DNA of 64,000 nt from Halosimplex aquaticum. GTDB lineage: Archaea > Halobacteriota > Halobacteria > Halobacteriales > Haloarculaceae. The stretch covers positions 558,001-622,000 of the forward strand of contig NZ_CP118158.1 in assembly GCF_028747785.1 (NCBI RefSeq), in the 5' to 3' direction. The translations under genes were made by a program, and so were the position numbers. The notes under the pieces are model-generated. The model worked only from the letters and a program-made list of their open reading frames with translations, was not told the DNA's origin and searched no databases. Position 1 is the first letter of the stretch, and each line of letters opens with the position of its first letter. Shown here in pieces: positions 1,900-28,012 of the stretch.

Positions 1900-3636
1900 T
1901 CACCGGCTCCCGGGTTCTTCGCCTCGCTCGGCAGGCCAGATGAGCTTCGTGTCGCGGGTCCGGCCGTGTCCGTCGAAGGTACCGTGGACGTAGCCGTGTC
2001 CGCCCAGATACTCCGGGACCAGACCGGGTTTACCGCGGAGCGCCGCGTCGAGCGCGAGGATCGCCAGCGGCTCGGCGGCGTCGAACCGCGCGTAGGCGCG
2101 GTCCGCGCTCGCGAGGAAGAAGCCGTGGTGGTAGCGCCGTTCGATCATGCGGTCCGCCACGCGGCGAGCGCGGTCCAGGTAGTCCGGGTGGCTCGCGGTC
2201 CGCTGGAGCTCCAGCAGCGCGAATATCTCCATCGGGTTCGCACCCGCCACTTCCGGGTCCAGCGCCACGCCCTCGCCCGGGTTGGCACCGATGTCGCCCA
2301 CGCCGAGTCCGTCTGCGATCCGCCTGGCCGTCTCCCACAGCACGTCCCGTCCGGAGAGGCGGTACGCACGCACGTACGTCCGGAGGAACTGCATGTCGGC
2401 GTCGAGCGGCTCCCACGTCCGCCCCTTCTCGCCGTAATAGCCGGTGCGCGGGAACGACTTCCCGGTCAGATCTGTCCCGTCGGCCCACATCGGCAGGAAC
2501 GCGTTCCGCTCCGGCGCGTACCCGTGCTCGGCGAGCACCGCGAGGCCGTCGACCGTCCACCGGCGTAACTGCTCGCCGTCCCGACCGAGCGACTCCGCGA
2601 GGGCGAGCTGGACGAACCCGCTGCGGGCGTACAGCGTCCGGACCCGACTCCCCCAGACGACCCACCCCTCGCGCGCGACCTCCGCGAACTCGTCGCCGAA
2701 CTGGTTCTCCGCGCGGTCGCCGTAGTCCGAGGTCGTCGGCAACGGGCCGTCGGCCGGCGGTTCGTTGCGTCGCCGCGGCTTCGTGTACTGGTAGGCGCCC
2801 AGCCCCGTCTCGGGGTGGCGCGCCTTCACGTACATCTCCGCGAGGCGCTCTCCCCAGGTCCACGCGTCGCCGTCGCCGGCGAGCGCGGACAGCGCGCCGG
2901 CCGCGAGGATCAGGTCCGTACCGACGTTGACGAACGAGAGCCCGTCGCCCTCGAAAAAGGGGTCCGGGTCGGCGAACTCGTGGTCCCAGAGATCGCCCAG
3001 TTCTCGGCCGTACTCGCCGTGACGGTTCATGTCTAGCGTTTCCCAGTCGAGGACGTGCGCGTCCCAGACCGCCCTGAGGAGGCGAGTCGTCGCCTCGGCG
3101 TCGACGTCCCACAGCAGTTCGTAGAACGGGAAGTGGGTCTTGAACTCGTGGACGTCGGCGTCGAAGTGCCCGACGGGGTCGAGCGTCCGCAGATCGACGA
3201 ACTGGTGGCCGCCCCACCTGAGCAGGCCCCGCTCGTCGACGAGTTCGTCGAAGTGGTAGGCGACCGACTCCCTCGCCGCGTCCACGTACCGGCGATCTCC
3301 CGTAACGCCGCTCAGCCCGGCCAGGACCCGGAACAGGTTCTGCTGGCTGGCCAGGTTGGAGACGACGAACTCCTCGCCGTCGTATCGCCAGGTCACGGGG
3401 TCGTCCGTCTCGACGTGAACGCCGTCGACGAACAGCGGCGTCGACTCGCCGCTCCACCGGTCGCGCCCGGTCTCCAGCACTCGGTCGACGTACGACTCCA
3501 CGGTCGACAGCCGCTCGTCGTCGCGCCGGGGCGTTTCGGCCGCCGTGTTCGCGCTCCGGCTCCCAGCTGTCGAACGACCGTCGTCGGCCGCACTGCTCGC
3601 TCCCAGAAACGGATCGCCGCCGGACTGATAGATCAC
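1900..3636 (-). CDS. Helical (alpha/alpha)-barrel enzyme, possible pectate lyase or glycosidase
   Basis: This large acidic protein is rich in aromatic residues and repeated helix pairs (LFRVLAGLSGVTGDRRYVDAA; RTLYARSGFVQLALAESLG), the pattern of (alpha/alpha) toroid carbohydrate enzymes. I cannot place it firmly; PL2-type pectate lyases have a similar fold and size, and the pectin context favours that. A TATA-like TTATCA (3661-3666, complement strand) lies 27 bases before an in-frame GTG at 3636, suggesting a leaderless start there (578 aa). The longer frame begins with GTG at 3729 (609 aa) but its extra residues look non-conserved. It lies downstream of the ThDP enzyme on the same strand. 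No secretion signal is evident, so it probably acts on imported oligomers. Confidence 0.6.
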   Translation of the reverse strand: MIYQSGGDPFLGASSAADDGRSTAGSRSANTAAETPRRDDERLSTVESYVDRVLETGRDRWSGESTPLFVDGVHVETDDPVTWRYDGEEFVVSNLASQQNLFRVLAGLSGVTGDRRYVDAARESVAYHFDELVDERGLLRWGGHQFVDLRTLDPVGHFDADVHEFKTHFPFYELLWDVDAEATTRLLRAVWDAHVLDWETLDMNRHGEYGRELGDLWDHEFADPDPFFEGDGLSFVNVGTDLILAAGALSALAGDGDAWTWGERLAEMYVKARHPETGLGAYQYTKPRRRNEPPADGPLPTTSDYGDRAENQFGDEFAEVAREGWVVWGSRVRTLYARSGFVQLALAESLGRDGEQLRRWTVDGLAVLAEHGYAPERNAFLPMWADGTDLTGKSFPRTGYYGEKGRTWEPLDADMQFLRTYVRAYRLSGRDVLWETARRIADGLGVGDIGANPGEGVALDPEVAGANPMEIFALLELQRTASHPDYLDRARRVADRMIERRYHHGFFLASADRAYARFDAAEPLAILALDAALRGKPGLVPEYLGGHGYVHGTFDGHGRTRDTKLIWPAERGEEPGSR

Positions 3637-3772
3637 GTTCAGAGGGTTGCAGACGACGAATGATAACGTTTCTCCCGGCGAGTCGTCGCTCGTCGTCACG
3701 CGAGGTGTCGCAGTGAACGGAGGTGTCACCGGGCGGCTGGTGACGGCGCGCGTTCGGATCTGAACCGGGCGG

Positions 3773-9889: not shown

Positions 9890-9921
9890 TAGTGGGGTCG
9901 GCGCACTTCAGAACAGTCACG

Positions 9922-11364
9922 ATGAGTGCATCCCAAGAGGTGGAGCGCTGGGACATATTCCAGCTCGATCTTACAGGCCCGTCCGATGGAAACCCCTACA
10001 CCGATGTCACACTGAAAGCCGAGTTCAGCGACGGCGACCAGGCGGTTACCGCCCGAGGATTCTACGACGGCGACGGACAGTACGCGGTCCGCTGTATGCC
10101 CGACACGCCCGGGGAGTGGACGTATCGAACCGAGAGTTCGGAGCCCGCCCTCGACGGGATCGAGGGGTCGTTCGTCTGCACCGAGGCCAGCGACGGCAAC
10201 CGCGGGCCTGTCCGCGTCGCGGATACGCACCACTTCGAGCACGCCGACGGCACTCGACACTCCTCGTTCGGGACCACCTGCTACGCGTGGACGCACCAGG
10301 ACCCGGCGGTTCAGGAGCGAACGCTCGAGACGCTCGCCGAGGCACCGTTCAACAAGCTCCGGATGTGCGTCTTCCCGAAGTGGTTTACCTACAACCGCCG
10401 GGAACCGGTCCGCCACCCCTTCGAGGGCGGCGCGTCCGGGGATCCCGACTTCGACCGACCCGACCCGGAGTTCTTCCAGCACCTCGAGGACCAGGTCGCA
10501 CAACTCCGGGACCTGGGTATCCAGGCGGACGTGATCCTCTTCCATCCCTACGACAAGTGGGGCTACTCGGACATGGGAGACGAGGCGGACGACCGGTACC
10601 TCGAGTACGTGATCGCGCGACTAGCCCCCTACCGCAACGTCTGGTGGTCGCTGGCCAACGAGTGGGACCGTTTCGACGACAAGGACGAGAGCGACTTCGA
10701 CCACTACTTCCAGGTGGTTCAGGAAGAGGACCCCTACGACCACCTCCGGTCGGTGCATCACCTCTCGGAGTGGTACGACTTCGAGAAGCCGTGGGTCACC
10801 CACTGCAGCATCCAGGAGCGTGAACACCAGGACATGGCCCAGTGGGTGGACGAGTACGAGAAGCCGGTCGTCAACGAGGAGTGCGGCTACGAGGGCGACA
10901 TCGAGAAGTCGTTCGGCAGTATCTCCGGTCACTACATGATGAACCAGTTCTGGCTCGGGGTGACCGGTGGCGGCTACGTCGGCCACGGCGAGACCTACCG
11001 CCACCCGGAGGACATCCTGTGGTGGTCCCACGGCGGCGATCTACACGGCTCGAGTCCCGACCGGATCAAATTTCTGCGCGACCTGGTCGAGGAGGCGCCG
11101 GGACCGCTCGAACCCATCTCGATGAAGACAGATCGGCCGCCGTGGGGCGCCCACGCGAACGAGGACTACTACCTGTTCTACTTCCGGTTCTACCAGCCCT
11201 CGCTGTGGTCGTTCGACCTGCCCGACGACGGCGAATTCGAACTGGAGGTCGTCGACCCGTGGGAGATGACGATCAGACCACTCGGGGGGACGCACTCGGG
11301 CGGGGACGAGGTCGAACTTCCCGGCGACGACTACATGGCCGTCCGAGCGCGACGCGTCGAGTGA
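9922..11364 (+). CDS. DUF5060/DUF4038-type glycoside hydrolase
   Basis: The 480-residue protein begins with a beta-sandwich resembling DUF5060 (RWDIFQLDLTGP, GEWTYRTES), continues into a TIM-barrel glycosidase (FGTTCYAWTHQ; FNKLRMCVFPKWF), and ends with a beta domain. The likely acid/base is E247 in SLANEWDRF and the likely nucleophile E319 or E320 in VVNEECGYE, as in clan A glycosidases. There is no signal peptide, so it probably acts in the cytoplasm on imported oligosaccharides. The activity is unknown. Position between acid-sugar genes and GH28 suggests a pectin or hemicellulose side-chain. Confidence 0.8.
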   Translation: MSASQEVERWDIFQLDLTGPSDGNPYTDVTLKAEFSDGDQAVTARGFYDGDGQYAVRCMPDTPGEWTYRTESSEPALDGIEGSFVCTEASDGNRGPVRVADTHHFEHADGTRHSSFGTTCYAWTHQDPAVQERTLETLAEAPFNKLRMCVFPKWFTYNRREPVRHPFEGGASGDPDFDRPDPEFFQHLEDQVAQLRDLGIQADVILFHPYDKWGYSDMGDEADDRYLEYVIARLAPYRNVWWSLANEWDRFDDKDESDFDHYFQVVQEEDPYDHLRSVHHLSEWYDFEKPWVTHCSIQEREHQDMAQWVDEYEKPVVNEECGYEGDIEKSFGSISGHYMMNQFWLGVTGGGYVGHGETYRHPEDILWWSHGGDLHGSSPDRIKFLRDLVEEAPGPLEPISMKTDRPPWGAHANEDYYLFYFRFYQPSLWSFDLPDDGEFELEVVDPWEMTIRPLGGTHSGGDEVELPGDDYMAVRARRVE

Positions 11365-11510: not shown

Positions 11511-12941
11511 ATGGCTCGACACGACGCAATAGAGTATGGTGCGGTCGGTGACGGGGAGACGGACGACACCGCGGCCATCCAGGCAGCGATCGACGCAGCC
11601 GCCGAGGACGGCGGCGGAACGGTCGTTGTGCCAGCGGGCGAATACGTGACGCGCCCGCTGCTCCTCCGGTCACACGTGGAGATCCGGATCGAGGGAGGGG
11701 CGATCCTACTTGGGAGCGAGGACATCGACGAGTACCCCGCCGTCGAGGGGCGCTGGGAGGGCGTCGAGCGGGACGTGTACGCGTCGCTGTTGACCGGTCA
11801 CGACCTTGAGGACGTCGCCATTACCGGCAGCGGGACGCTCCACGGGCGCGGCGAGGTGTGGTGGGAGGCCTTCCACGATGACCGCGATGCGTACCCGGAC
11901 GCCGTCGGCCGGGATCTCGAGTACCCCGGGCGACTCGACTGCCCTCGTCCACGGATGATCAACATCTACGATAGTCAAAACGTCCTCATACGGGACATCG
12001 AAATCAGGAACTCGCCGTCGTGGACCGTCCACCCGGTCTACTGCGAGAACGTCACCATCGACAACGTCACGATCCGGAATCCCGAACACTCCACGAACAC
12101 GGACGGCATCAACCCCGACTCGTGCCGGAACGTCCGCATCTCGAACTGCGATATCGACGCGGGGGACGACTGCATCACCATCAAGTCGGGATACGACGAA
12201 GACGGCCGCCGGGTGGGTGAACCCTGCGAGAACGTCGTCGTCACCAACTGCACGATGTACCACGGTCACGGCGGGGTCGTCATCGGCTCGGAGATGGCCG
12301 GCGGCGTGCGCAACGTCACCGTCTCGAACTGCGTGTTCGACGGCACGGACAACGGCCTGCGTGTCAAGACCGAGCGCGGTCGGGGGAGCGTCGTCGAGAA
12401 CATTCGGGCGACCAACCTGGTGATGCGCGACCTGAAACGGTCGGCGTTCATCGCCACGATGTTCTACCAGGGTCGCGGTGCGGACGAACCTCGGCCGGTG
12501 ACCGAGGAGACGCCGCGGCTGCGGGAGATGCACTACTCGGACATCACCATCGACGGGACTACCGACGTCACGACGATCAGGGGGTTGCCGGAAATGCCCG
12601 TCGAGGACGTCAGCCTCTCGAACGTGAGGGTCCGCGGCGCGGACCGCGGCGTCCGGGCCGCCAACGTCGACGGGTTCGACCTCCGGGACGTGAGCGTCGA
12701 CGCCGAGGAGACACCGGCGTTCGACGTCGAGCGCGCCAGCGAGGTGGAGTTGACCAACGTCGAAGACCCCGATCCCGATCCCGACCGGCCGGTCGTGCGC
12801 CTTGACGGCGCCGACGCCGTCGTGCGGGGGTGCGTCGCCGACAGATCGGCCGGCGCGTTCCTCGAACACACCGACAGCGACGTCGTGCTCCTCGAGAACC
12901 ATCTCGATGCAGCTGAACGCGACGGAGTAGCTCGCGATTGA
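11511..12941 (+). CDS. GH28 polygalacturonase-family enzyme
   Basis: The 476-residue protein is a right-handed beta-helix with all four GH28 signatures: NTDG (196-199), G-DDC (catalytic D219/D220), GHGG (H253), and RVKT (R284, K286; usual form RIK). The N terminus GAVGDGETDDTAAIQAAID is the pectate-lyase-3-like cap. GH28 enzymes hydrolyse galacturonan or rhamnogalacturonan. No Sec or Tat signal is visible, implying intracellular exo-type trimming of imported oligogalacturonides. A TATA-like GTTAAC at 11481-11486 is 27 bases before the ATG. Confidence 0.93.
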   Translation: MARHDAIEYGAVGDGETDDTAAIQAAIDAAAEDGGGTVVVPAGEYVTRPLLLRSHVEIRIEGGAILLGSEDIDEYPAVEGRWEGVERDVYASLLTGHDLEDVAITGSGTLHGRGEVWWEAFHDDRDAYPDAVGRDLEYPGRLDCPRPRMINIYDSQNVLIRDIEIRNSPSWTVHPVYCENVTIDNVTIRNPEHSTNTDGINPDSCRNVRISNCDIDAGDDCITIKSGYDEDGRRVGEPCENVVVTNCTMYHGHGGVVIGSEMAGGVRNVTVSNCVFDGTDNGLRVKTERGRGSVVENIRATNLVMRDLKRSAFIATMFYQGRGADEPRPVTEETPRLREMHYSDITIDGTTDVTTIRGLPEMPVEDVSLSNVRVRGADRGVRAANVDGFDLRDVSVDAEETPAFDVERASEVELTNVEDPDPDPDRPVVRLDGADAVVRGCVADRSAGAFLEHTDSDVVLLENHLDAAERDGVARD

Positions 12942-13141: not shown

Positions 13142-13924
13142 ATGTCAGACAAGACGATCACCTCCATCGAAAACGGAATGTCGATCATCGAACTGGTGAT
13201 CTCGAACGGCGGCATGACACAGACGGAGGTCAGAGAGGAGCTCGACTGGTCGAAGGCGAAGACCCACTACTACATGAAAACACTCCGGAAGTGTGGACTG
13301 ATCGTCCAGAGAGAGCGCGAGTATTTCGCCGGACTCGGTCTCGCCACGTACGGGAGGGCGGCGATCGAACAGACGGAGCTGGTACATCCCCTGCGCACTG
13401 TCGTCGATGACCTGGCTGCTGAAACGGACAAGCTGGCGCTGCTCGCCGTCGAACAGAACGACGAGATCTATTACGTCTACCAGAGCGAGGCCGGTGATTC
13501 GGCGGGAGAACGGAACCTCGTCGGGAAGGCGAGAGAGCCTCACTGCACCGCGTTCGGGAAGGTGATCCTGGCGAACGTCGACGAGAACCGTCGGGAAGCG
13601 CTCCTGGCGGACGTCGAATTCGATTCGGACTCCCAGTGTTCGAACACGTCCGAAGCGGAGTTGCGGCGAGAGCTCGAACAGATCCGAGAGAACGATTTCG
13701 CGTACGACGAGGCCGAGTTCGAACCGTCGATACGCGGTATCGCGGCTCCTATCTGGGATACCGGGGGCGAAAGGCTGCTCGGGTCACTCGGCGTGATCAG
13801 TTCCGAAGAACCGCTCGAAGACCCGTATTCGGGGACGAAAGCACAGCGATTCGCGAAGACTGACGCGAATATCGTGAAGCGATTCGCGAAGACGGCGCGA
13901 AACAAGCTCGACGGAGGGGAATGA
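13142..13924 (+). CDS. IclR family transcriptional regulator
   Basis: The 260-residue protein has an N-terminal winged helix (about 8-65: MSIIELVISNGGMTQTEVREEL, SKAKTHYYMKTLRKCGLI) and the IclR effector domain with the typical HCTAFGKVILA segment near 136-146 and RGIAAPIWD near 199. IclR proteins sense small organic acids or sugars. It sits after GH28 and before further sugar genes, so it likely controls this island. Its stop TGA is followed at once by the ATG of the ADP-ribosylglycohydrolase gene, implying a shared transcript. Confidence 0.9.
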   Translation: MSDKTITSIENGMSIIELVISNGGMTQTEVREELDWSKAKTHYYMKTLRKCGLIVQREREYFAGLGLATYGRAAIEQTELVHPLRTVVDDLAAETDKLALLAVEQNDEIYYVYQSEAGDSAGERNLVGKAREPHCTAFGKVILANVDENRREALLADVEFDSDSQCSNTSEAELRRELEQIRENDFAYDEAEFEPSIRGIAAPIWDTGGERLLGSLGVISSEEPLEDPYSGTKAQRFAKTDANIVKRFAKTARNKLDGGE

Positions 13925-15007
13925 ATGACTGACGATATCCACGACAGCGTGTACGGTTGCCTGGTCGGTGGTGCGATCGGCGACGCGCTCGGTGCCACGG
14001 TCGAGGGGTGGTCGCACGAAAACATCGCTGCGGAGTACGGGGCGGTCGACGAGTTCGGCGCGTACGATAACCCCCACGCCGAAGGGGAGCCGGGTTCGAT
14101 CACCGACGACACGGTCATGTGTCACTACCTCTGCCTGTCGATCGTCGAGAACGGCGGCCGTATCACTCCCCGGGAGTACGCGGACACGCTCGAGCGGTTT
14201 CTCGACACGGACCGCGTCTGGGTTCCGGAAGAACTGATGGCCAAGAAACTCGCGGCGGGAATGAACCCCTGGCGAACGGGGCGCGGGACTGTCTCGGCGG
14301 GCACAGCGATGATGTCGATCGCACCCATCGGGGTCATCAACGCCGGGAATCCGCGCCAAGCGTACCAAGACGGGTACAACCTCGCGGCGATCAACCAGGA
14401 CGGGATCGAACAGGACGCCGCGGCGACGGTAGCTGCGGGAATCGCTACCGCTATCGAACCGGAGAGTAGCGTCGACGACGTCGTCGAGACGATCGTCGAG
14501 TATTCACCGGACATCCTCCACCGCGCGATCGACCTCTCGCTCGGTCTGGCAGTCGAAAGTAACGACGTCTCGTCGTTCCGGGAGCGATTCTACGACGAAC
14601 TCCTCGACTGGCGATGGCCTGCGGTCAAGTGGGGGCGAGCACAGTACTACGACGGCCAGGTGTTCAGCGCGAGCAGCATCGAATCGCTTCCCGCGGCAGT
14701 GGGTCTGCTGTCGCTGTGCGGGACCACGGCGGATCGCGCGCTCGTCGAGGCGGCCAGCTTCGGTCGAGACAGCGACACGATCGGCGCGCTCGTCGGCTAC
14801 GTCGTCGGGGCTGTTCACGGGGCGAGCGAACTCGACGAGTCCTGGAAAGCGACCTGTACCGACGTGAATCAGGAGTTCTTCGACGATTTCCCGGACGACG
14901 TCGACGTCGGATTCGAGGCGATGTCTGACCGGCTCGTCACGGCGCTGGAACGCGAGCGCGACCGAGCAGCCGAACGACGGCAGCAACTCGACCTGATGCT
15001 TCAATAG
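13925..15007 (+). CDS. ADP-ribosylglycohydrolase family protein
   Basis: The 360-residue protein opens with the family signature DSVYGCLVGGAIGDALGA (about 6-23), has TDDTVM near 58-63 (metal-binding T/D/D), and a C-terminal GRDSDTIGALVGYVVGA near 278 (paired Asp of the di-metal site). Members remove ADP-ribose from proteins or cleave related N- and O-glycosides. It is translationally adjacent to the IclR gene (no spacer) and lies inside a sugar locus, so a nucleoside- or glycoside-type substrate is as likely as a protein. The C-terminal charged tail (RERDRAAERR) may be coil. Confidence 0.9.
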   Translation: MTDDIHDSVYGCLVGGAIGDALGATVEGWSHENIAAEYGAVDEFGAYDNPHAEGEPGSITDDTVMCHYLCLSIVENGGRITPREYADTLERFLDTDRVWVPEELMAKKLAAGMNPWRTGRGTVSAGTAMMSIAPIGVINAGNPRQAYQDGYNLAAINQDGIEQDAAATVAAGIATAIEPESSVDDVVETIVEYSPDILHRAIDLSLGLAVESNDVSSFRERFYDELLDWRWPAVKWGRAQYYDGQVFSASSIESLPAAVGLLSLCGTTADRALVEAASFGRDSDTIGALVGYVVGAVHGASELDESWKATCTDVNQEFFDDFPDDVDVGFEAMSDRLVTALERERDRAAERRQQLDLMLQ

Positions 15008-15113: not shown

Positions 15114-16571
15114 TTACTCCTCGCGGAGGACAGCGATCCACCTGTCGTCTGACGGCGGTTCCAGTTCGAGTTCGTCGTCTTCGGCATCGATACTCGACTC
15201 GTCGACCCATTCGGAGTCGTCGACTTTGAGCCATCGTACAGTGAACGATCCGGACGTGTCGGCTGCATCGAACGGCACGCGACCGCCAGACCGGAAGTAC
15301 ACGATGTATTCGCCAGCAGACCTGTTGCCGGCACAGTACGCTTCGTCGTCCTCTCGGGCGAATTCGAAGTGGTGGTCCGTATCTCTCTCACGAAGGAGAC
15401 TGTTTGACGGGGCGGCTTCGACGAAATCGGTTTCGTCGATCACCATCCGCGCAGACTCCAGTTGTCGCTGGACTAACTCTCGAAGCCCGAGTCCCCATCC
15501 GCTTTCGCCCCGGTGGAATCTGGCGCTGGCGCAGCCGCCGAGTAAATTCCGCCAGAAGTGTGAAATCGCCTCGTCTGCCGTTCCCGCGGCCCACGTCTGC
15601 CGGTCCCCCTGCTCACTTTCGACGCAGCCGTAAATTTTCTCGTTACTCAACGGGCGAACCGCGTCGTGTGAGTAGAGTTCTTCTCGCCAAGTCTGTATGT
15701 TGTCCCAGTGGTCTTGTCCAGTCGCTCCTTCGGCGTTCTGATTGTTCTGGGAGATCTCGACGTGCGAATAGAGATCGGGGTTCCCGAGCATCCGTGAAAC
15801 CGTCTCACCGGGATTCAACCGCATCGCCGTGACGTTGACGGGCCAGTCGTGCACCGCTGTCGCTCGGTCGCCTCGGTGCTCGTGGCTTTGGTCTTCTCCC
15901 GAGGCCAGCTGCTCCGCAGCGTACGATTGGACGAACTCTAACCAGTGACGTTCCCACGAGGGAGGTGACTTGGATTCGTTGTTGATGTTGTAAATCACGT
16001 GACCGAACGGGAGCGTGCGATCGAGGATGGCTTCGACAAATTGCTCCTGGTAGCCCAGCAGGAGGTCGTTGCCCTCCGCGACGGAATTGTAGAAGTTCGA
16101 CGCGTCTCCGATGTCGACATCGTCATCTGCGGGGAGACCGAACTCGTCCTCCGAATAGTTCACGTTGTTATCCGGATTCCAGGGAATGTCCGACCACCGA
16201 CCGTGGTCGAACCGATCCCAAAGCGTGATCTGGACGACCATGTCACGCTCCTGTGTCTCCTCCAGGAATGTAACGAGTCGGTCCTCGAATTCCTCGTTCA
16301 GTTCGTCGAGATCGTACGTCCCATCGTCGACTTCCGCGAAGGGAGGGACGTTCCCCTCGTCGCGATAGGTGAGGACGTTCCGAAGAAAGTTCCCGCCGCA
16401 CGATTCCAAGAGGTCGAGTGCGTCGGTCAGTTCGTCGCCGGTCCACTGAAACGGGTTGTCGTCCTCGAACCCACCGATGAGAATTACCGGCTCTCCCTGA
16501 TACTCGAAATACCACGGGTTCTCTCTGGAGACGGTTATCCGGTCGCTGGACGGATCGCTAGTACTGCTCAC
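15114..16571 (-). CDS. DUF4038-like glycoside hydrolase
   Basis: A predicted TIM-barrel enzyme of about 485 residues. It has an N-terminal NPWYFEYQGEPVILIGG segment typical of DUF4038-type glycosidases, GGNFLRNVLTYRDEGN, VVQITLWDRFDHG, an acid/base candidate in NINNESKSPP, and a C-terminal beta domain. It has no lipobox or signal. The start is uncertain: TTG 16589 opens the frame, but a TATA-like ATTTATT on the minus strand (about 16600-16606) puts a leaderless start near the GTG at 16571. It is convergent with the ADP-ribosylglycohydrolase gene. A sugar-side-chain role in this island is inference. Confidence 0.75.
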   Translation of the reverse strand: MSSTSDPSSDRITVSRENPWYFEYQGEPVILIGGFEDDNPFQWTGDELTDALDLLESCGGNFLRNVLTYRDEGNVPPFAEVDDGTYDLDELNEEFEDRLVTFLEETQERDMVVQITLWDRFDHGRWSDIPWNPDNNVNYSEDEFGLPADDDVDIGDASNFYNSVAEGNDLLLGYQEQFVEAILDRTLPFGHVIYNINNESKSPPSWERHWLEFVQSYAAEQLASGEDQSHEHRGDRATAVHDWPVNVTAMRLNPGETVSRMLGNPDLYSHVEISQNNQNAEGATGQDHWDNIQTWREELYSHDAVRPLSNEKIYGCVESEQGDRQTWAAGTADEAISHFWRNLLGGCASARFHRGESGWGLGLRELVQRQLESARMVIDETDFVEAAPSNSLLRERDTDHHFEFAREDDEAYCAGNRSAGEYIVYFRSGGRVPFDAADTSGSFTVRWLKVDDSEWVDESSIDAEDDELELEPPSDDRWIAVLREE

Positions 16572-16773
16572 AGCGAGTGAGAACACCAACCATCACAATA
16601 AATCTATGCTCTCGGGGAGCAAGTTGTTCCTATCGTAGTCCGGGCCTTCCTGTGATCCCCGGACTGCCGTCCACACTACTGAAAGCGCGAATTGGAAGCA
16701 ACGAGTACCATCCCGTCTACTCGGTAAAATCGCGAGCCTGCAACTCGACAACGACGTCCTTGGCAGGAGCGAA

Positions 16774-16812: not shown

Positions 16813-17787
16813 ATGGAAATCGGCTACTTCACTGCCCACGAGCAGTACGACCCGACGACGCTTCTCAGGCACGCGTCACTGGTCGAGGAGGCGGGCTTCG
16901 ATACGGTCTGGACGAGCGACCACGTCCATCCCTGGTGGCACACGGACGCGCAGTGTGGCGCGGCGTGGCCGTGGCTCGGCGCAGCGCTCGAGTCGACTGA
17001 TTCCGTCCGTATCGGGACGGGCGTCACGCCGCCGATCGCTCGGTATCATCCGGGAACGATCGCACAGGTGTTCGCGACGCTGGGAGCGATGTATCCGGGA
17101 CGGGTCCACGTCGCCCTCGGGACGGGCGAGTCGATGAACGAGGTGCCCCTCGACTACGAGTGGCCGGCGTACCCCGAGCGGCGCAAGCGCCTGATCGACG
17201 CCTGCGAGATCATCACCCGACTCTGGGACGGGGGCTTCACGACGTACGACGGGCACTACTGGAGCGTCGACACGTTCAACCTCTACACGCGACCGGACGA
17301 ACGCGTCCCGCTGTTCGTGTCCGCGAACGGGCCGAAGACGACCCGGGTCGCCGGCCGGTACGCTGACGGACTGTTGACGCTGGTGGACAACGAACGGTAC
17401 GAGGAGGTGCTCGTTCCGGCCCTCGAAGACGGCGCGGCGGAGGTCGGGAGAGACCCGGACGAGATAACGCGGATCAGACAGCTCCTCGTCTCGTACGACG
17501 AGGACTACCAGCAGGCGCTCGAGAGTATCGGCTTCTGGCGCGGGATCCCCGCCGTCGGATTCGACGCCGAGATCCCGGACCCGCGGATCATCGAGGAAGA
17601 GGGCCGCGAGCTACCGCTCGAAGGGATGACAGATACCTGGGTCGTGACGAGCGACCCCGAGGAGATTCGAGCCGAACTGGAAGCAGCACGCGACGCCGGG
17701 TTCGACGAGGTCGAGATCCACTCGGGCAGTCCCGACCAGTCCGCCTTTATCGAGATGATGGAATCTGAAGTTCTCCCTCGCGTCTGA
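16813..17787 (+). CDS. LLM-class F420-dependent oxidoreductase, sugar-phosphate dehydrogenase-like
   Basis: The 324-residue protein is a luciferase-like (beta/alpha)8 enzyme: MEIGYFTAHEQYDP at the N terminus, TVWTSDHVHPW near 36-46, IGTGVTPPIARYHPG near 72, GRVHVALGTGESMNE near 95, and FVSANGPKTTRVAGRYADG near 165. The pattern is closest to F420-dependent glucose-6-phosphate dehydrogenase relatives, which oxidise an aldose C1 to a lactone. Haloarchaea make F420, so that cofactor is likely. Placement among acid-sugar genes suggests it makes a sugar lactone for the metallo-hydrolase encoded at 21995-22849. This link is inference. Confidence 0.85.
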   Translation: MEIGYFTAHEQYDPTTLLRHASLVEEAGFDTVWTSDHVHPWWHTDAQCGAAWPWLGAALESTDSVRIGTGVTPPIARYHPGTIAQVFATLGAMYPGRVHVALGTGESMNEVPLDYEWPAYPERRKRLIDACEIITRLWDGGFTTYDGHYWSVDTFNLYTRPDERVPLFVSANGPKTTRVAGRYADGLLTLVDNERYEEVLVPALEDGAAEVGRDPDEITRIRQLLVSYDEDYQQALESIGFWRGIPAVGFDAEIPDPRIIEEEGRELPLEGMTDTWVVTSDPEEIRAELEAARDAGFDEVEIHSGSPDQSAFIEMMESEVLPRV

Positions 17788-17874
17788 ACTACTATCACGA
17801 CCGGAGGCGGTTCACGTCTGATACCACCCTTGCACGCCGTATTACGCCGCTTCGTTGATTTCGGCTGGATAGGT

Positions 17875-18573
17875 TCAGGGTTTCGAGAATCGCTGGAGAA
17901 CCGCAGCGATCTCCCGCAGTGTCGCTTCTCTCTCTTCGGTATCGACGCGTTTCGAGATCCAGGACGCAGAGCCGGTCGCGTCGGCGAGTTCGAGCGCCCG
18001 TTCGACGTCCGACACGGAGGAGATCCCACCTCCGAGGAATACCCCGGTCTGCGGGCTTCGCTCGGCGACGAGTTCTCGAAACTCCGTGACCGATCGCGGG
18101 TCGGTCTCCGTGAGTGACGTCGTCGTTCCGAGTAGCTCTGGGTGCTCGAAGACGACCCAGTCCGGCTCCCATTCGAGAATGGCTTTGCCGAACTCGACGC
18201 CGTCGACGCAGACGACGGACGCGAGTCCCACTTCGCGACATCGTCCTATCTTCTCGTACAGTTCGTCCGTCTGTTCTCTGAACTCGGGATGGTTCATCAT
18301 GACGCCGTCAGCACCGGCCTCGTGGATCGTCTCCGCCAAGACGTGCCCCAGTCCCGGTCCCGGCGAGTGCGGCGACATCCCCTGGGCGAGGATCGGGAGG
18401 TCGACGGCCTCGGCGACGAGTCTGATGTCCGGCGTCTGCGGGGAGAGAACAAAGGTGACGCCGAACTCGTCGGCGACCCGTTCGGCCGTCTCCGCGAACC
18501 GCAGTCCGTCCTCGCCCCCGGTCTCGGGGTAGAGCTTGTAGTTGATCTGGAAGAACGGCTCGTCGAAACCCAT
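17875..18573 (-). CDS. Triose-phosphate isomerase paralogue without the usual active-site histidine
   Basis: The 232-residue protein aligns with archaeal TIM along its length: NYK (K13, substrate lysine), LSPQTPDIRLVAE, GHVLAETIHEAGADGVMMNHPE, catalytic glutamate E143 in VFEHPELLG, and GGGISS near 176. The histidine that normally follows AQ (AQH) is a glycine here (AQG, residues 63-65), so it is unlikely to be the housekeeping isomerase. TIM relatives such as Brucella EryH isomerise L-erythrulose 1-phosphate, and such a role would fit this locus. Its ATG begins 3 bases after the stop of the aldolase gene, so the two form an operon. Confidence 0.8.
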   Translation of the reverse strand: MGFDEPFFQINYKLYPETGGEDGLRFAETAERVADEFGVTFVLSPQTPDIRLVAEAVDLPILAQGMSPHSPGPGLGHVLAETIHEAGADGVMMNHPEFREQTDELYEKIGRCREVGLASVVCVDGVEFGKAILEWEPDWVVFEHPELLGTTTSLTETDPRSVTEFRELVAERSPQTGVFLGGGISSVSDVERALELADATGSASWISKRVDTEEREATLREIAAVLQRFSKP

Positions 18574-18576
18574 GGT

Positions 18577-19365
18577 CTACTCAAGGCGACCGAGCGCTTC
18601 CTCAGCGGTCGCACCGTCGTGAACGATCGCTTTCAGCGCCGAGACCATGCCGGCAGGATCGTCGTGTTGCCAGACGTTCCGGCCGTAGATAGGGCCGGCC
18701 GATCCGGCCGCCACGGCTCCCTCAGTCATCTCGAGGACGTCGTGGTCGCGCTCGGCCTTCGGGCCGCCGGCGACGTAGACCGGGCACGGGGAATTAGCGA
18801 CGACCGGCTCGAACGCCTCCGAGCTACCGGGGTAGTAGAGCTTCAGCATGTCCGGACCGAGTTCGGAGCCTATCCGACCCGCTTGCTCGATGAACGACGC
18901 GTCGAGGTCGTCCGTGATGCGGGGCCCCCAGAGGGTCGGTTCGAGGACGACCGAGAGGTCGTGGTTCCGCCCCTCGGCCGCGACCCGGGCGGCGAATTCG
19001 AGGTTGTCCCCGAGGACGTCCGGGTTTTCGCGCCCGTAAATAACACACACCTTGACCGCGTCTGCCCCGGCCCGGTCGGCCTGTTCGAGGCTGAACGCCT
19101 GTCGGTGGATCTCGTTCGCGCCCTGATGACCCGGGAGCGTCGAGTCGTGGATGATATCCAGCGTGCCGATCTTGTAGACGTCGGGGTACTCCGCGAACAC
19201 GTCTTCGTACTGCTCGAGGAACGGAACGCTGGCGAGGACTCCGTCCGGTTCGCCTTCGAGGACGCGTTCGAGCGTCGCGCGGCGGTCTTCGAACCCGTCG
19301 AAGACCCCCCAGTGTAGCCCGTGATCCAGTGCGACGACGACAGCATCGCCTAAAGTGCCACTCAT
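18577..19365 (-). CDS. Class I aldolase of the FbaB/DhnA/LsrF (DeoC-like) family
   Basis: The 262-residue protein is a (beta/alpha)8 Schiff-base aldolase: LDHG (13-16), a DAVKVCVIYG strand near 102-111, and the Schiff-base lysine in DMLKLYYPG (K175), followed by VYVAGGPK near 192 and the phosphate-binding GSAGPIYGRN. Relatives include archaeal fructose-bisphosphate aldolase, LsrF thiolase and 2-amino-3,7-dideoxy-heptulosonate synthase. Coupling to a TIM paralogue and proximity to a DUF1537 kinase suggest cleavage or decarboxylation of a phosphorylated oxo-acid sugar. A TATA-like TATTAAATAACT (19395-19406) precedes the ATG. Confidence 0.85.
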   Translation of the reverse strand: MSGTLGDAVVVALDHGLHWGVFDGFEDRRATLERVLEGEPDGVLASVPFLEQYEDVFAEYPDVYKIGTLDIIHDSTLPGHQGANEIHRQAFSLEQADRAGADAVKVCVIYGRENPDVLGDNLEFAARVAAEGRNHDLSVVLEPTLWGPRITDDLDASFIEQAGRIGSELGPDMLKLYYPGSSEAFEPVVANSPCPVYVAGGPKAERDHDVLEMTEGAVAAGSAGPIYGRNVWQHDDPAGMVSALKAIVHDGATAEEALGRLE

Positions 19366-19394
19366 GCTAGCTTCAATGAAGAAAGGCCGCAGAG

Positions 19395-19406
19395 TATTAA
19401 ATAACT
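19395..19406 (-). promoter_or_regulatory. TATA box of the aldolase-isomerase operon
   Basis: On the minus strand AGTTATTTAATA is centred about 35 bases before the ATG at 19365. Confidence 0.5.
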
Positions 19407-19621
19407 ATTTCCATTCCACGATCCGCTGCCGACTAGCAAACGGACGGTCGAATCCGTGAACTCCGGTCAGCGCAGAGCCAGCCGACGGCCTCTCGGTCGT
19501 CCCGTTCCGTGACCGAGTGGCACACTCATGCGGAGCAGGGCGCCGCTACACGGGAGAGATGATCGATCCGCGGCAGTCGACAGGTGACTGGCCACGCCGA
19601 TCGAATCGGAGGAACCGCCGC

Positions 19622-20470
19622 TCAATCGCTGCTCACGATCCGCTCGGTACTCTCCTGGACGTTTTCGACGTCGAAGACCCGGTCTTCCCAGTCGGACCGG
19701 AAGATTTCCGACTTCGCCTCCCTGATCGCCTGCTGCGCCCCGTCGGAGAACGGGAAGTCCGTGAAGCCGAAGATGATTCCGAACTCGATACGCAGGTGGC
19801 CGAACAGCATCTCCCGGGCGGCGTCCTCGGGGACGCCCATCTCGACGACGTGTTCGTAGCCCTCTCGTAGGACGGTGAGGCACGTGCCCAGGAGCGTCTC
19901 GACGAGGGCGGGTTCGAGGATCGCCATCTGTTCGGTCGTCACGCGGTGGGCGTCCCGGACGGGCGCGTAGATGTCCCTGGCGATCGTCTCACCTTTCGCG
20001 TAGTCGTCTTCGGGGCCCTGATGGAGTGCACAGACGATGTCCTGAACGTCACGACCTTGCCCGCCGAACCAATCGGGGGAATCGTCGTCCATGTCTGTAT
20101 CGGCCGTGAAGAAGGACGGATGGCACGGATGCGTCAAGAAATACGTGACGTCTTCGCGGCCGTGGAGGACATCTGCGTACGCGGCCGCCGGGTCCAGCAA
20201 GATTACCACGGCCCCGGAGTCGAGCTTCGGGACTACGTCCTCGGAAATCGCCCCGATCAGCTCGTCGGGGACGGCCATGATCACGACATCCGTTCCCGCA
20301 AGCGCTTCGTCTGGAGAGGAAGCGTCGACGCCCCGTTCGGCCAGACGTTCCTGTCCCTCCTCGCTCGGTTCGACACAACGCACGTCGTAGGCGGGATCGT
20401 CCCGTATCTGGTCGACGATCCGACAGCCCATCTTCCCGCCTGCACCCATGACTGTGACTGACTCAGGCAT
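19622..20470 (-). CDS. NAD-dependent dehydrogenase with phosphogluconate-dehydrogenase-type C terminus, apionate oxidoisomerase-like
   Basis: The 282-residue protein has an N-terminal Rossmann domain (VTVMGAGGKMG, G9-G15), a conserved FLTHPCHPSFF segment (111-121), and an all-helical C-terminal domain (TTEQMAILEPALVETLLGTCLTVLREGYEHVVE split over about 180-210). This architecture is shared by D-apionate oxidoisomerase (ApnO), which converts D-apionate to 3-oxo-isoapionate. The DUF1537 kinase gene immediately upstream on the same strand is the partner expected in that pathway. The substrate is inferred; another acid sugar is possible. It has its own TATA-like box at 20496-20508. Confidence 0.75.
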   Translation of the reverse strand: MPESVTVMGAGGKMGCRIVDQIRDDPAYDVRCVEPSEEGQERLAERGVDASSPDEALAGTDVVIMAVPDELIGAISEDVVPKLDSGAVVILLDPAAAYADVLHGREDVTYFLTHPCHPSFFTADTDMDDDSPDWFGGQGRDVQDIVCALHQGPEDDYAKGETIARDIYAPVRDAHRVTTEQMAILEPALVETLLGTCLTVLREGYEHVVEMGVPEDAAREMLFGHLRIEFGIIFGFTDFPFSDGAQQAIREAKSEIFRSDWEDRVFDVENVQESTERIVSSD

Positions 20471-20495
20471 ACTCTATTTGAGAACGAGAGTTGAC

Positions 20496-20508
20496 CAATA
20501 TAATAATT
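20496..20508 (-). promoter_or_regulatory. TATA box of the oxidoisomerase-like gene
   Basis: On the minus strand AATTATTATATTG is centred about 32 bases before the ATG at 20470, so this gene can be transcribed separately from the kinase gene 97 bases upstream. Confidence 0.5.
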
Positions 20509-20567
20509 GTGTTCGGGCGCATCGCCTCCACTCACTGCTCGCGGCTAGAGGTCGATCCCAGCCGCGG

Positions 20568-21983
20568 TTATTCCGCTCCGGCCAGTTCGCCTCCGTCTCG
20601 AACGAGACCGAAGTAGTCCGCCTGGCCGACCTGTCCGCCTTTGAGCGCGATTTCGAGCCCGTCGAATCGGTCGTCCTCGGAAGACGCTCGACAGAGCGGA
20701 CCGCCGGGAGCCAACGGCGTCAGCAGTTCGAGCGCGTAGACGTCGAGCGCTGGGGCGGCGTACCCGCTCGTGTCCCCGCCGGCGACACACACTCGATCGA
20801 CGGTGGTCCGTTCGAGGACCTCGCGGAGGATCGCCCCCTGTTCGCGGCCGAGGCGTGAACCGATTGCCGTCTCGTCTAGCTGCAACTCCGCGGCTCTCTT
20901 TTCTGTCTCGGCGATACGCTCGTCGTTCGGCCCCCGAGCGGAATAGAGGATCACGCTCCGACCGGCGTCGATACTCTCGATGGCTGCCTGAACGGCCGCC
21001 TGTCTTTCGTCTCCGGCGACAGCGTCATCGATCAGGCGGGTCGAATCGAGTCGGTGCCCGTCGAATCCGTGCTCTAGCGCCCAGTCGATCTGTTCGGCCG
21101 TGACTGGCGAAGCGCTGCCCGACACGATCACTGTCGGGATCTCCTGCGGAAGCGTCTCAGTCGAACGGGTTTCGGCGAGGTCGCCCGTCGCTTGCAGGTA
21201 GTCGGTAATCGCGTACTCGAGGCCGGAGGAGCCGACGGTGAAGACCGTTTCCGGTCGGCTGACGCAGTACTCCCAGACGAGTTCGCCGACGGTCGATTGA
21301 TGTTCCTCGGCCACGGTATCGAAGAACACGACATCGGCGTCGTCCCGTATCGTCGTAAACGCATCCCGAGGAGAACCTGACTCCGCCCCCTCTATGTCCA
21401 GGAGGTCGACGAGCCCGATGTCTTTCGCCGTCTGCTCGGCGAGATGTTCCCGGAGGTCGGCTTCCTCCATGGGCGTTACCGGATGGTCTTTCATCGTCGG
21501 ATGGCGGTCGAGACGATACGTTTCTCCGTCGACTGTCGCGAACAGGTTACCGAACGCGACGTACCGTCCACGTGGATGGAGGTCGGGCGCCGCGACGACG
21601 ATCGGAACCGTCGACGAAGCGAATACGTTCGTGCCCAGATCGATCGCGTGTCCGATGCTTCCCACGTCGGGCGCGGAGTCGAACGTCGAGCACACTTTGT
21701 AGTGGAACAGTTCGGAATCGAACTGTCGCAACTGCTCGAATACGGGGGGGAGCGCCTCGTCCATCTCCGCTGGCGTCATGCTTCGACTCGTTCCGGCGAC
21801 CCCGATCGCGTCCACGTTCTCGAACGCTTCGAGGTCCTCCTCGGTCGGAGGCTCGAAGAATAACACTGTCTGCATCCCGTTCAACGCGAGCGACTCCATC
21901 ACGTCGGTCGATCCGGTGAGATCGTCGCCGTAGAACGTAAGGTGGACGTCGATACTCCTCTCGTCTGTCGTATCGGGTTCCAT
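20568..21983 (-). CDS. DUF1537 four-carbon acid-sugar kinase family protein (OiaK/OtnK-like)
   Basis: The 471-residue protein has both DUF1537 halves. The N-terminal domain has FYGDDLTGSTD (17-27), HYKVCSTFDSAP near 94 and DRHPTMKDHPVTPM near 158. The C-terminal nucleotide-binding domain has VSGSASPVTAEQI near 289, AGGDTSG near 400 and IALKGGQVGQADYFG near 448. Family members phosphorylate oxidised acid sugars (for example 3-oxo-isoapionate or 2-oxo-tetronate). Its ATG lies 11 bases after the stop of the metallo-hydrolase gene, so both are cotranscribed. The pathway assignment is inference from the neighbours. Confidence 0.85.
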   Translation of the reverse strand: MEPDTTDERSIDVHLTFYGDDLTGSTDVMESLALNGMQTVLFFEPPTEEDLEAFENVDAIGVAGTSRSMTPAEMDEALPPVFEQLRQFDSELFHYKVCSTFDSAPDVGSIGHAIDLGTNVFASSTVPIVVAAPDLHPRGRYVAFGNLFATVDGETYRLDRHPTMKDHPVTPMEEADLREHLAEQTAKDIGLVDLLDIEGAESGSPRDAFTTIRDDADVVFFDTVAEEHQSTVGELVWEYCVSRPETVFTVGSSGLEYAITDYLQATGDLAETRSTETLPQEIPTVIVSGSASPVTAEQIDWALEHGFDGHRLDSTRLIDDAVAGDERQAAVQAAIESIDAGRSVILYSARGPNDERIAETEKRAAELQLDETAIGSRLGREQGAILREVLERTTVDRVCVAGGDTSGYAAPALDVYALELLTPLAPGGPLCRASSEDDRFDGLEIALKGGQVGQADYFGLVRDGGELAGAE

Positions 21984-21994
21984 GACTGTATGGG

Positions 21995-22849
21995 TTAGAT
22001 ACTGCGAAGGGGTACGATCCCGCTTTCGCCGACGTTAATTCGGTCTCCGACGCGAATCACGTCCATTGTCCGCGGATACGGATGCGACGCGATGTGATCG
22101 TGCAGTCCTTTCGGATCGGCTTCGACGTTTTTCCACATGTCGTAGTGACACGGGAGCAGCCGATCTAGCTGAAGTTGATTTGCCGACTCGACGACCTGGT
22201 CTTCGTCTTGATACCAGTCGACTCGCCGGGAGCAATCGTCTTCGGGCACGTAGAGGTGCCCTCGGGTGCCAAACGCGAGCGTTCCGTCGTCGATATCGAA
22301 CTCTTCTCCGATCGCTTCGAACTCCTCGCCCGGCCGAGCGTCGCCCGCATTGAAGAAGGTCCCCGATTCGTGTTCGATGACGTACCCGACTGACTCGATC
22401 GCGTCGGGGTCGTTCGTCCGCCGAACGTGTACTGTGAGATCACCGAACTCGATCGAGGAACCGTGTTCGACGACGTGGCGCCGGTCATCAGGTCCGCGTA
22501 TCTCTCCCTCGTAGTCCGGGTCTCGGTATCCCGAACGTGGAGTGTACAAATGCGCACCTGTATTCTCCAGTATCGGACGGTAGGATGGTGGATGCATGTG
22601 ATCCAAGTGCTCGTGGGTGACGAGAACTCCATCACAGATCGTCGCGTCATCGGGGTCCATCGCGACCGGGTTCATCCGGATCGTCCACGGTGGATCGCCG
22701 TTGCCGAAATACGGGTCGATGTAGAGTGTCGTCTCGCTCGATCGGACGACAAAACTGTTACAGCCCATGTACCAGACAGAAAGCGATTCAGGCGTTACTG
22801 CCTCGATCTCTTGGGAGACAAACCAGTCTCCCCAGTTCGATTCGACCAT
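21995..22849 (-). CDS. MBL-fold metallo-hydrolase, UlaG-like, possible sugar lactonase
   Basis: The 284-residue protein carries the metallo-beta-lactamase signature THEHLDHMH (H79, H81, D83, H84), a later GDARP aspartate near 180, and a C-terminal CHYDMWKN histidine near 248. The CHYDMW-type end and WYMGCNSFVV start resemble UlaG (L-ascorbate-6-phosphate lactonase) relatives. Directly ahead of an acid-sugar kinase gene, hydrolysis of a sugar lactone to the free acid is the simplest reading. The promoter is at 22874-22884. Confidence 0.85.
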   Translation of the reverse strand: MVESNWGDWFVSQEIEAVTPESLSVWYMGCNSFVVRSSETTLYIDPYFGNGDPPWTIRMNPVAMDPDDATICDGVLVTHEHLDHMHPPSYRPILENTGAHLYTPRSGYRDPDYEGEIRGPDDRRHVVEHGSSIEFGDLTVHVRRTNDPDAIESVGYVIEHESGTFFNAGDARPGEEFEAIGEEFDIDDGTLAFGTRGHLYVPEDDCSRRVDWYQDEDQVVESANQLQLDRLLPCHYDMWKNVEADPKGLHDHIASHPYPRTMDVIRVGDRINVGESGIVPLRSI

Positions 22850-27484: not shown

Positions 27485-27951
27485 CTCGCTGCGCTCAACC
27501 CGGATGTCGAGGTTGAGACGGTGCCGGGTGTATCATCGGGGACCGCAATCACGTCGACGCTCGGCGTCGATATCGTAGCCGGGCGGGGCTCGCGTTACAC
27601 GAGGCCGATGGTGGTGCGGCCCCAACTGGCCTGGACCGGATGATCCTGTTCAAAGTGACCGACGCGCCGACAACCCATGAAGGACTCGTCGAGGCTCGTT
27701 ACGAGGTGATGTACGGTCGCCGGCTGTTCATGGAGGACAGCGAGACGGTTATAACAACTGACCCCACCGAGGTCGCTGACCGGGGGTACTACACGCTCGC
27801 GTATGCAGAACGCGGAGACCATGATGACGACCCGGTGACTGCGGCCTTCATAACTCAACAGGGAAACGACGAAACCGAACAGGTCTACCGTTTTCGTACA
27901 GGATACTGCCGTCTCAATGCTGTCCTCCTTTCGAGTAGAGACGCCAAGTAG
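27485..27951 (+). pseudogene. cbiL: C-terminal remnant of cobalt-factor II C20-methyltransferase (CbiL), frameshifted
   Basis: Frame 2 reads ALNPDVEVETVPGVSSGTAI then TLGVDIVAG; near 27585 it must shift to frame 1, which reads LALHEADGGAAPTG, ILFKVTDAPTTHEGL, YEVMYGRRLF, and YYTLAYAERG. This series is the C-terminal half of tetrapyrrole methylases of the CbiL type (VPGVSS strand, F-K-V then Y-x-V-x-YGRRLF). The N-terminal half and its glycine-rich SAM loop are missing, so the gene is dead. The C-terminal tail is intact to the stop at 27951. Confidence 0.6.
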
Positions 27952-28012
27952 TCTAAGAGGGCAGTACGCCTGAACACGGTGAGACAACGAGCCTGCAGAG
28001 ACAGTAATTGGG

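Follow-up and report, generated by a model that had tools for sequence, protein, structure and literature searches.

Which enzyme takes the place of the RuBisCO-like protein (RLP) in an archaeal gene cluster that otherwise resembles bacterial clusters for D-apionate breakdown, and where does the carbon go? The question is raised by a 64,000-nucleotide stretch of Halosimplex aquaticum DNA (NZ_CP118158.1, positions 558,001 to 622,000; hereafter, the window), which belongs to contig C1 of genome G000 (5.16 Mb; completeness 99.97%, contamination 9.25%). The bacterial D-apiose/D-apionate pathways, reportedly described by Carter et al. in 2018, employ the oxidoisomerase ApnO, the kinase OiaK and RLPs. 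Like them, the window has adjacent ApnO-type and OiaK-type genes, a possible dehydrogenase and lactonase, and a plant cell-wall setting; unlike them, it has no RLP anywhere in the genome, a class I aldolase of the DeoC/LacD type (below, ALD) and an archaeal-type paralogue of triose-phosphate isomerase (TIM; the paralogue is called TIM2 below) instead, and no RpiB-type DerI. Judged from sequence comparison, the cluster very probably encodes an archaeal version of the ApnO/OiaK pathway in which the RuBisCO-like step is replaced, and its substrate is probably apionate; whether ALD is the replacing lyase and dihydroxyacetone phosphate (DHAP) the end product is evenly balanced. The pathway family and the exchange are well supported, while substrate, products and formaldehyde release are what we infer. 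Among the top-listed papers of literature searches made chiefly outside subscription journals, none dealt with archaea breaking down apionate or apiose.

The ApnO-type and OiaK-type genes of the window

Checks of open reading frames, together with Pfam and NCBIfam family support, identified six convincing genes at 16813-22849. The preliminary description of this DNA had announced seven; the six families that it named are present, and the seventh gene is not there.

16813..17787, plus strand: F420-dependent LLM-class oxidoreductase, candidate aldose dehydrogenase (TIGR03557, 221.3 bits, cut-off 210.4)
17875..18573, minus strand: TIM2, triose-phosphate isomerase paralogue (Pfam and NCBIfam; catalytic residues kept; canonical TIM elsewhere in the genome)
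18577..19365, minus strand: ALD, class I (Schiff-base) DeoC/LacD-family aldolase, proposed RLP replacement (Pfam, NCBIfam, motifs, fold, exchange with RLP)
19622..20470, minus strand: ApnO-type oxidoisomerase (PGDH_C, 167.5 bits; solved relatives 5t57 and 3c24; tree)
20568..21983, minus strand: OiaK-type 3-oxo-isoapionate kinase of the DUF1537 type (NCBIfam OiaK, 496.7 bits, cut-off 700; next model, 187.5)
21995..22849, minus strand: UlaG-like metallo-hydrolase, candidate lactonase (Lactamase_B_2; 53% homologue in the RLP-type locus L033)

The minus-strand genes are transcribed in the order UlaG-like hydrolase, OiaK-type kinase, ApnO-type enzyme, ALD and TIM2, with intergenic gaps of 11, 97, 256 and 3 bp, respectively; AT-rich stretches seen by eye inside the 97-bp and 256-bp gaps are possible promoters.

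The match of the 19622 protein to PGDH_C (PF16896) far exceeds the cut-off of 25 bits, while the 6PGDH NAD-binding domain scores 20.8, just below its cut-off of 21. The closest solved relatives, 5t57 (E 2e-66) and 3c24 (E 8e-59), are presumably members of the ApnO family; the remaining 17 of 19 solved matches comprise 16 ketol-acid reductoisomerases and one protein of the prephenate-dehydrogenase type, none of them named 6PGDH. In a tree of 55 rows, the window protein is nested inside the ApnO set. Thus, the ApnO architecture claimed in the preliminary description is borne out, and the protein does not group with 6-phosphogluconate dehydrogenases, the grouping that had been named beforehand as speaking against the claim. 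The 19622 protein is ApnO-type, and its family suggests oxidoisomerase activity on D-apionate. The DUF1537 kinase had there been set beside bacterial OiaK, and OiaK is by far the top-scoring NCBIfam model for it (496.7 bits vs 187.5 for 3-oxo-tetronate kinase and 74.1 for D-threonate kinase).

The lyase next to OiaK in haloarchaea

We searched a class sample of 391 haloarchaeal genomes for ApnO at E <= 0.001. Eighty genomes matched, 72 of which, with best matches of at most 33.8 bits, were not counted as ApnO. True ApnO (59-100% identity) is found in eight genomes: G000, G122, G197, G192, G106, G312, G026 and G345. All eight also contain OiaK, which lies apart from ApnO in two (about 11 kb in G026 and 45 kb in G345). 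ALD, at E <= 1e-60, is present in 18 of the 391 genomes; 16 of these have no true ApnO, and none of the ten of them that were tested contains OiaK.

In six of the eight true-ApnO genomes, a RuBisCO_large gene is located no more than about 60 bp upstream of OiaK. The other two, G000 and G122, gave no RuBisCO_large match in whole-genome searches, which did return matches in five of 14 control genomes, so the earlier statement that there is no RLP is true for the locus and for the entire window genome as well. G000 and G122 are also the only ones of the eight with ALD; by simple counting, the chance that the two ALD genomes would be exactly the two without RLP is 1 in 28. The locus of G122 (L031), a genome from another family, shares the order OiaK-ApnO-ALD-TIM2 with the window, with identities of 56, 69, 70 and 76%. 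As can be seen, ALD and TIM2 occupy the place of the RLP; the bonds that they may cut are considered below.

The closest ApnO seen (82%) is encoded on a plasmid of Halalkalicoccus sp. FCH27, beside OiaK and a protein annotated as belonging to the ribulose-bisphosphate carboxylase family. In the ApnO tree, the window sequence pairs with this RLP-linked row (support 100/98), and L031 branches at another place; the two ALD-linked rows of the OiaK tree (46 rows) likewise stand apart from each other, among RLP-linked ones. The starred branches of both trees force two changes for ALD, and it follows that the lyase partner changed at least twice, although with only two ALD rows per tree this test shows merely that they are not sisters. 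It is the conserved gene order, the nesting in the trees and the lack of RLP across whole genomes that together make the case for an exchange. In the simplest reading, ApnO and OiaK would have been retained and their lyase partner swapped on at least two occasions, i.e., a non-orthologous replacement. In the preliminary description, the class I aldolase was suggested, as a guess, to substitute for the missing RLP; this is strengthened by these results and by the comparison of OiaK loci that follows.

The same data bear on a different view, according to which ALD and TIM2 are an unrelated module for ketose phosphates, placed by chance next to a pair of ApnO and OiaK genes that lost its RLP. ALD and TIM2 do occur independently of OiaK in other haloarchaea, and uneven GC content and transposase genes are found 5-15 kb downstream of the cluster. 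Against this stand the order of four genes kept across two families at 56-76% identity with open frames, and the absence of RLP from both genomes. We consider such a broken route very improbable.

In an order sample of 392 genomes, which overlaps the class sample, OiaK is present in 15. The 18 haloarchaeal OiaK loci compared fall into those with the ALD cluster (two), those with RLP adjoining OiaK (11) and those with a class II aldolase adjoining OiaK (five); the class II aldolases are Pfam-confirmed in two cases and assigned by similarity in the others. Four of the latter loci (L163-L166, in G056, G419, G430 and G100) contain no RLP or ApnO match within 20 kb. The fifth, L167 (G264), has an RLP about 8 kb off, and conversely, in L170 (G345) it is RLP that adjoins OiaK, with a class II aldolase about 7 kb off. 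The notion of a single lyase type per OiaK genome therefore holds only in the close neighbourhood of OiaK, being contradicted by L167, L170 and G394. We also considered that the class II aldolases beside OiaK might be 3-oxo-tetronate 4-phosphate decarboxylases. This is weakened for L163, whose enzyme scores 97.5 bits with that NCBIfam model (cut-off 250) vs 218 bits with haloarchaeal ribulose-1-phosphate aldolase (cut-off 300), both scores being below their cut-offs. An Asp/Glu-racemase-like protein is encoded in L163-L166; such a protein also adjoins RLP in L170 and L171 and lies near it in L168.

The haloarchaeal RLP-OiaK-ApnO loci (Haloterrigena sp. KLK7, Haloarcula sp. JP-L23, Halalkalicoccus sp. 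FCH27 and Halegenticoccus tardaugens) share families with the window (64-82% identity for ApnO and 48-56% for OiaK) and carry RLP where the window has ALD-TIM2. The 12 haloarchaeal RLPs form one clade in a tree, on the side of Xanthobacteraceae RLPs and away from rhizobial ones. With the OiaX model, the Mesorhizobium protein of L072 scores 777 bits (cut-off 700), two haloarchaeal RLPs score 508 and 514, and the Ancylobacter protein scores 455. Transcarboxylation/hydrolysis by an RLP yields 3-phosphoglycerate and glycolate. On the KLK7 plasmid (L160, 14989-18038), genes for enolase and pyruvate kinase lie between ApnO and OiaK-RLP, which hints that the archaeal RLP yields 3-phosphoglycerate; neither enzyme is encoded in the other haloarchaeal RLP loci compared. 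The RLP locus of G026 (L171) encodes an oxidase that is FAD-linked and has an iron-sulfur part, which we take to be GlcD-like. Both decarboxylation and transcarboxylation/hydrolysis are described for RLPs of Agrobacterium and Xanthobacter (PMC6302742). RLP-type haloarchaea may thus solve the problem of carbon exit through another product. That the helpers seem matched to the product, with glycolytic enzymes accompanying RLP and TIM2 accompanying ALD, is suggestive only.

A named collection provided at least 80 loci matching the ApnO profile; the counts that follow are for the 80 listed and for the flank fetched around each. OiaK is present in 59, RLP in 56 and both in 54. An ALD of at least 45% identity is found in none, the sole ALD match being one of 24% in L082. 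OiaK occurs without RLP in five loci (L063, L077, L091, L100 and L112), in three of which (L063, L091 and L100) OiaK is cut by the edge of the locus. The flanks of 19 loci contain no OiaK and no RLP, and some of these loci lie on short contigs; ApnO thus has other partners or gene arrangements too. In one locus without OiaK or RLP in its flank, from a metagenome-assembled genome (MAG) of Anaerolineae (L043, 9093-15429), ApnO is adjoined by a short-chain dehydrogenase/reductase and an AP_endonuc_2 protein and accompanied by a GHMP kinase and a hydrolase of the metallo-beta-lactamase fold. A 53% ApnO homologue also lies on a short MAG contig labelled Bathyarchaeota, possibly mis-binned, with no OiaK, RLP or ALD (L042, 2230-3072).

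ALD, TIM2 and the exit of carbon

An AlphaFold model of ALD (pLDDT 85, 12 sequences) has as its closest fold MJ0400, the M. jannaschii ADH synthase bound to DHAP (TM 0.82), followed by archaeal fructose-bisphosphate (FBP) aldolase and LsrF, at 24-32% identity in the fold search. ALD shares with these enzymes of the DhnA/DeoC/LacD group the fold, the Schiff-base lysine, and the glycine-rich and GR phosphate motifs. K175, AGG and GR are invariant in all 12 ALD sequences, which thus show the features of DeoC/LacD (DhnA) class I aldolases, and K175 aligns with the Schiff-base lysine of archaeal FBP aldolase, which we take to be Lys177. ALD is unlike these aldolases in three respects. At the position of what is presumably the acid/base catalytic tyrosine of archaeal FBP aldolase, Tyr146, the ALD clade has Thr in ten of 12 sequences (Thr144 in the window), Val in L137 and Met in L144. 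Lys105, invariant in the clade, is Ser in MJ0400 and Gly in FBP aldolase. Finally, ALD scores below the NCBIfam cut-offs of the archaeal class I FBP aldolase and ADH synthase models (107.6 vs 430 and 141.2 vs 299.45 bits). We considered loss of the tyrosine as a mark of apionate-specific decarboxylases and rejected this, since kinase-linked members of the clade likewise have no tyrosine.

Ten further ALD loci were fetched from the 16 remaining ALD genomes. A sugar or glycerol kinase is encoded near ALD in six of them: GlpK in L136 and L137, FGGY_N in L140 and L142, and a rhamnulokinase-like protein, scoring below cut-off, in L144 and likewise in its cluster mate L145. L139 has PdxA and, by eye, a kinase-like protein, and no kinase was recognized near ALD in L138, L141 and L143. 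A plasmid of Halapricum desulfuricans (L161) shows the order GlpK-ALD-DhaK. The recurrence of ALD, often with TIM2 or with a sugar or glycerol kinase, in loci without ApnO and OiaK, points to a DHAP-forming ketose-1-phosphate aldolase.

TIM2 scores 205.4 bits with NF003302, the model of the archaeal TIM subfamily (cut-off 132), and misses the equivalog cut-off of TIGR00419 (103.9 vs 130.6 bits). Its residues N11, K13, H95 and E143, presumably the catalytic Asn, Lys, His and Glu of TIMs, are invariant in seven of seven sequences. TIM2-type proteins are present in nine of 12 tested ALD genomes vs none of six RLP-type ApnO genomes, and they accompany ALD in seven genomes without OiaK or true ApnO. 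The two genes lie near one another in L138 and L140-L145, where there is no OiaK, and an FGGY-type kinase is found in four of these seven loci (L140, L142, L144 and L145).

In 3-oxo-isoapionate 4-phosphate, the carbon next to the ketone bears both a carboxyl and a CH2OH group, so an imine formed at the ketone can expel CO2 and then, from L-erythrulose 1-phosphate, formaldehyde. One can propose the following route. The F420 enzyme might oxidize apiose from pectin, and the UlaG-like hydrolase might then open the lactone, a step that is weakly founded. ApnO would convert apionate to 3-oxo-isoapionate and OiaK would phosphorylate this to 3-oxo-isoapionate 4-phosphate, both as expected from their families. 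The ALD lysine would form an imine at C3, and the adjacent carboxyl would leave as CO2, giving L-erythrulose 1-phosphate, as the exchange with RLP and the chemistry suggest; beta-keto acids in general expel CO2 in the same manner. In what is the least sure step, the same lysine chemistry would free formaldehyde, with DHAP remaining, which TIM2 would turn into glyceraldehyde 3-phosphate, an activity expected from its family with a substrate that we infer. To the proposal as a whole, a D-apionate cluster of archaea that follows a variant of the ApnO/OiaK route with the RLP step performed by a Schiff-base aldolase with its own TIM, we give a roughly even chance. The further idea that ALD is a natural two-step Schiff-base lyase acting on a branched acid-sugar phosphate, one carbon of which would lose CO2 first and formaldehyde next to leave DHAP, is tentative and on balance rather doubtful. 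Class I FBP and other DHAP aldolases are reported to make erythrulose 1-phosphate from DHAP and formaldehyde (EC 4.1.2.2), a side activity of theirs (PMC10733421), and where Thermococcales rely on Rubisco, haloarchaea are reported to employ an aldolase that forms DHAP (PMC9700705). The latter, the non-carboxylating pentose bisphosphate pathway of halophilic archaea, thus likewise has such an aldolase in Rubisco's place; as described there, it differs in its FucA-type zinc-dependent aldolase, its ribulose 1-phosphate substrate and its link to nucleoside breakdown.

Alternatively, ALD could decarboxylate without releasing DHAP, and TIM2 could act on L-erythrulose 1-phosphate. The missing tyrosine would suit a decarboxylase, for which a hydroxyl base is not needed, the catalytic residues of TIM2 are intact, and bacterial LerI is a TIM homologue, with shared LerI/TIM activities considered possible (PMC10733421). 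On the other hand, none of six genomes has a match to the RpiB family (LacAB_rpiB), and none has a full-length transketolase, Transketolase_N matches in four of the six covering at most 137 of 334 positions. The bacterial LerI/DerI exit to erythrose 4-phosphate therefore looks closed, leaving a tetrose phosphate without evident outlet. Moreover, the missing tyrosine is a trait of the entire ALD clade and not of apionate loci. Since TIM2 also accompanies ALD in the seven OiaK-less genomes, DHAP is the better fit for its substrate. The alternative is thus unlikely, and the role that the preliminary description gave to the TIM paralogue, isomerization of L-erythrulose 1-phosphate, which would lead toward erythrose 4-phosphate, is doubtful, even though its broader reading of an archaeal apionate-type route stands.

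Several observations weigh against replacement of RLP by ALD with DHAP as the end product. The aldolase version is known from only two loci. A RuBisCO-family (RuBisCO_large) match is present in four ALD genomes without true ApnO (G284, G309, G244 and G119), and in G394 an RLP adjoins OiaK and ApnO (L162) and a 50% ALD is encoded on a separate contig; since ALD and RuBisCO-family genes coexist in some genomes, their exclusion is one of neighbourhood. Thr144 in place of the acid/base tyrosine argues against efficient retro-aldol cleavage unless another residue serves. No formaldehyde-handling gene was recognized in the cluster, and in whole-genome searches a formaldehyde dehydrogenase model matched all 16 genomes, never above cut-off, as it did all 14 controls, which makes this search uninformative. 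At least five OiaK genomes (G056, G100, G264, G278 and G233) have no ApnO match in the class sample, so OiaK is not tied to ApnO. Finally, the haloarchaeal RLPs and the window OiaK miss NCBIfam equivalog cut-offs, and their substrates may therefore differ. Other haloarchaeal OiaK proteins score alike (L158, 505; L031, 499; L163, 479 bits), and the Ancylobacter kinase of L065, beside ApnO and RLP, is also below 700 with 584.8 bits.

The last points lead to a further possibility, that the substrate is a different branched or four-carbon acid sugar and that the specificity of the ApnO- and OiaK-type enzymes has shifted. Besides the OiaK score, this would agree with the occurrence of OiaK-type kinases with class II aldolases and without ApnO, and with the rarity of the apiosidase-like family PF13204 (one of 18 genomes), the window copy of which has an uncharacterized hydrolase as its closest solved relative. 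It is at odds with the joint presence of ApnO, OiaK and RLP in 54 of the 80 listed named loci and with the window being a pectin locus with an apiosidase-like protein. In strain LCG007, a cluster with like-named enzymes (D-apiose dehydrogenase, D-apionolactonase, ApnO, kinase and decarboxylase) accompanies growth on D-apiose (PMC11747546). We regard a different substrate as quite unlikely.

Pectin setting, neighbouring genes and implications

Apionate as the substrate fits the surroundings of the cluster, an apiosidase-like hydrolase, GH28 and pectate lyase nearby being in keeping with a pectin source. The pectin hydrolases that the preliminary description had placed next door are found, including a GH4 gene at 349-1794 and the following:

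1900..3729, minus strand: pectate lyase family 2, pectin context (PF06917, 625.8 bits)
9892..11364, plus strand: apiosidase-like glycoside hydrolase (DUF5060, PF13204 and DUF5605), possible apiose source (Pfam; solved chain 4n0r)
11511..12941, plus strand: GH28 polygalacturonase-type hydrolase (Pfam)
13142..13924, plus strand: IclR-type regulator, likely regulating the cluster (Pfam; partial homologue adjoining OiaK in L031)
13925..15007, plus strand: ADP-ribosylglycohydrolase-family protein (Pfam; partial homologue adjoining OiaK in L031)
15114..16589, minus strand: DUF6298 protein, glycosidase-like by eye (Pfam; 42% homologue in the OiaK-RLP locus L170)

The 9892-11364 protein matches PF13204, the catalytic domain of GH140 apiosidases, with 56.2 bits (cut-off 26.5), and its only solved match is 4n0r, a putative glycoside hydrolase (E 6e-112). 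Among the 18 genomes tested, PF13204 is confined to G000, with two copies (second match G000:C1:1918093-1918917), so uptake of apionate in free form may be the rule for the remaining loci; a GntP permease (73% identical) adjoins the cluster in L031 and on the Halalkalicoccus plasmid. In L031, partial matches to the IclR regulator and the ADP-ribosylglycohydrolase lie beside OiaK (6979-7899). Both proteins, full length in the window at 13142-15007, are thereby linked to the pathway; that the second might be an apiofuranosidase is a mere thought.

Dehydrogenase and lactonase steps had been assigned to the F420 and UlaG-like proteins. The families are as described, while the steps are still guesses. 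The oxidoreductase misses TIGR03554, F420-dependent glucose-6-phosphate dehydrogenase (235 vs 420 bits), and the hydrolase misses the NCBIfam UlaG equivalog cut-off (64.4 vs 306 bits). Both genes are absent from L031, and there is no UlaG match among the 80 listed named ApnO loci.

DUF6298-type proteins are encoded near OiaK in two haloarchaea, the window species and that of L170 (18237-19694). A solved-structure search with the window protein gave chance-level matches only, and a search of a viral fold library returned nothing useful. At 349-7910, besides GH4 and the pectate lyase, the window encodes further genes of pectin type: a thiamine diphosphate enzyme, an enolase-superfamily dehydratase and an Ldh_2 dehydrogenase. 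The region 27600-41000 is uneven in GC content (0.53-0.67) and contains three transposase genes (28152, 30480 and 37503), a sub-threshold Hint match at 29187 and, at 39452-40813, a candidate defence protein with an ApeA-type HEPN domain (PADLOC PDC-S58).

The cluster suggests that haloarchaea carry out apionate-type catabolism, with a class I aldolase predicted to perform the task of a RuBisCO-like protein. It also provides leads to the function of the TIM paralogue and of a clade of aldolases, the latter bearing the name "hypothetical protein" in the single closely related plasmid record inspected. If the proposed cleavage is true, ALD would be a physiological erythrulose 1-phosphate formaldehyde-lyase, hitherto described as a side activity, and, should the formaldehyde step be real, a natural counterpart of a synthetic C1-pathway enzyme. 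Together with the RLP and class II aldolase loci, three unrelated C-C lyases, one of them of the RuBisCO fold, would then be exchanged behind one kinase family. Such a swap would explain how branched C5 acids are used by archaea without an evident outlet for erythrose 4-phosphate.

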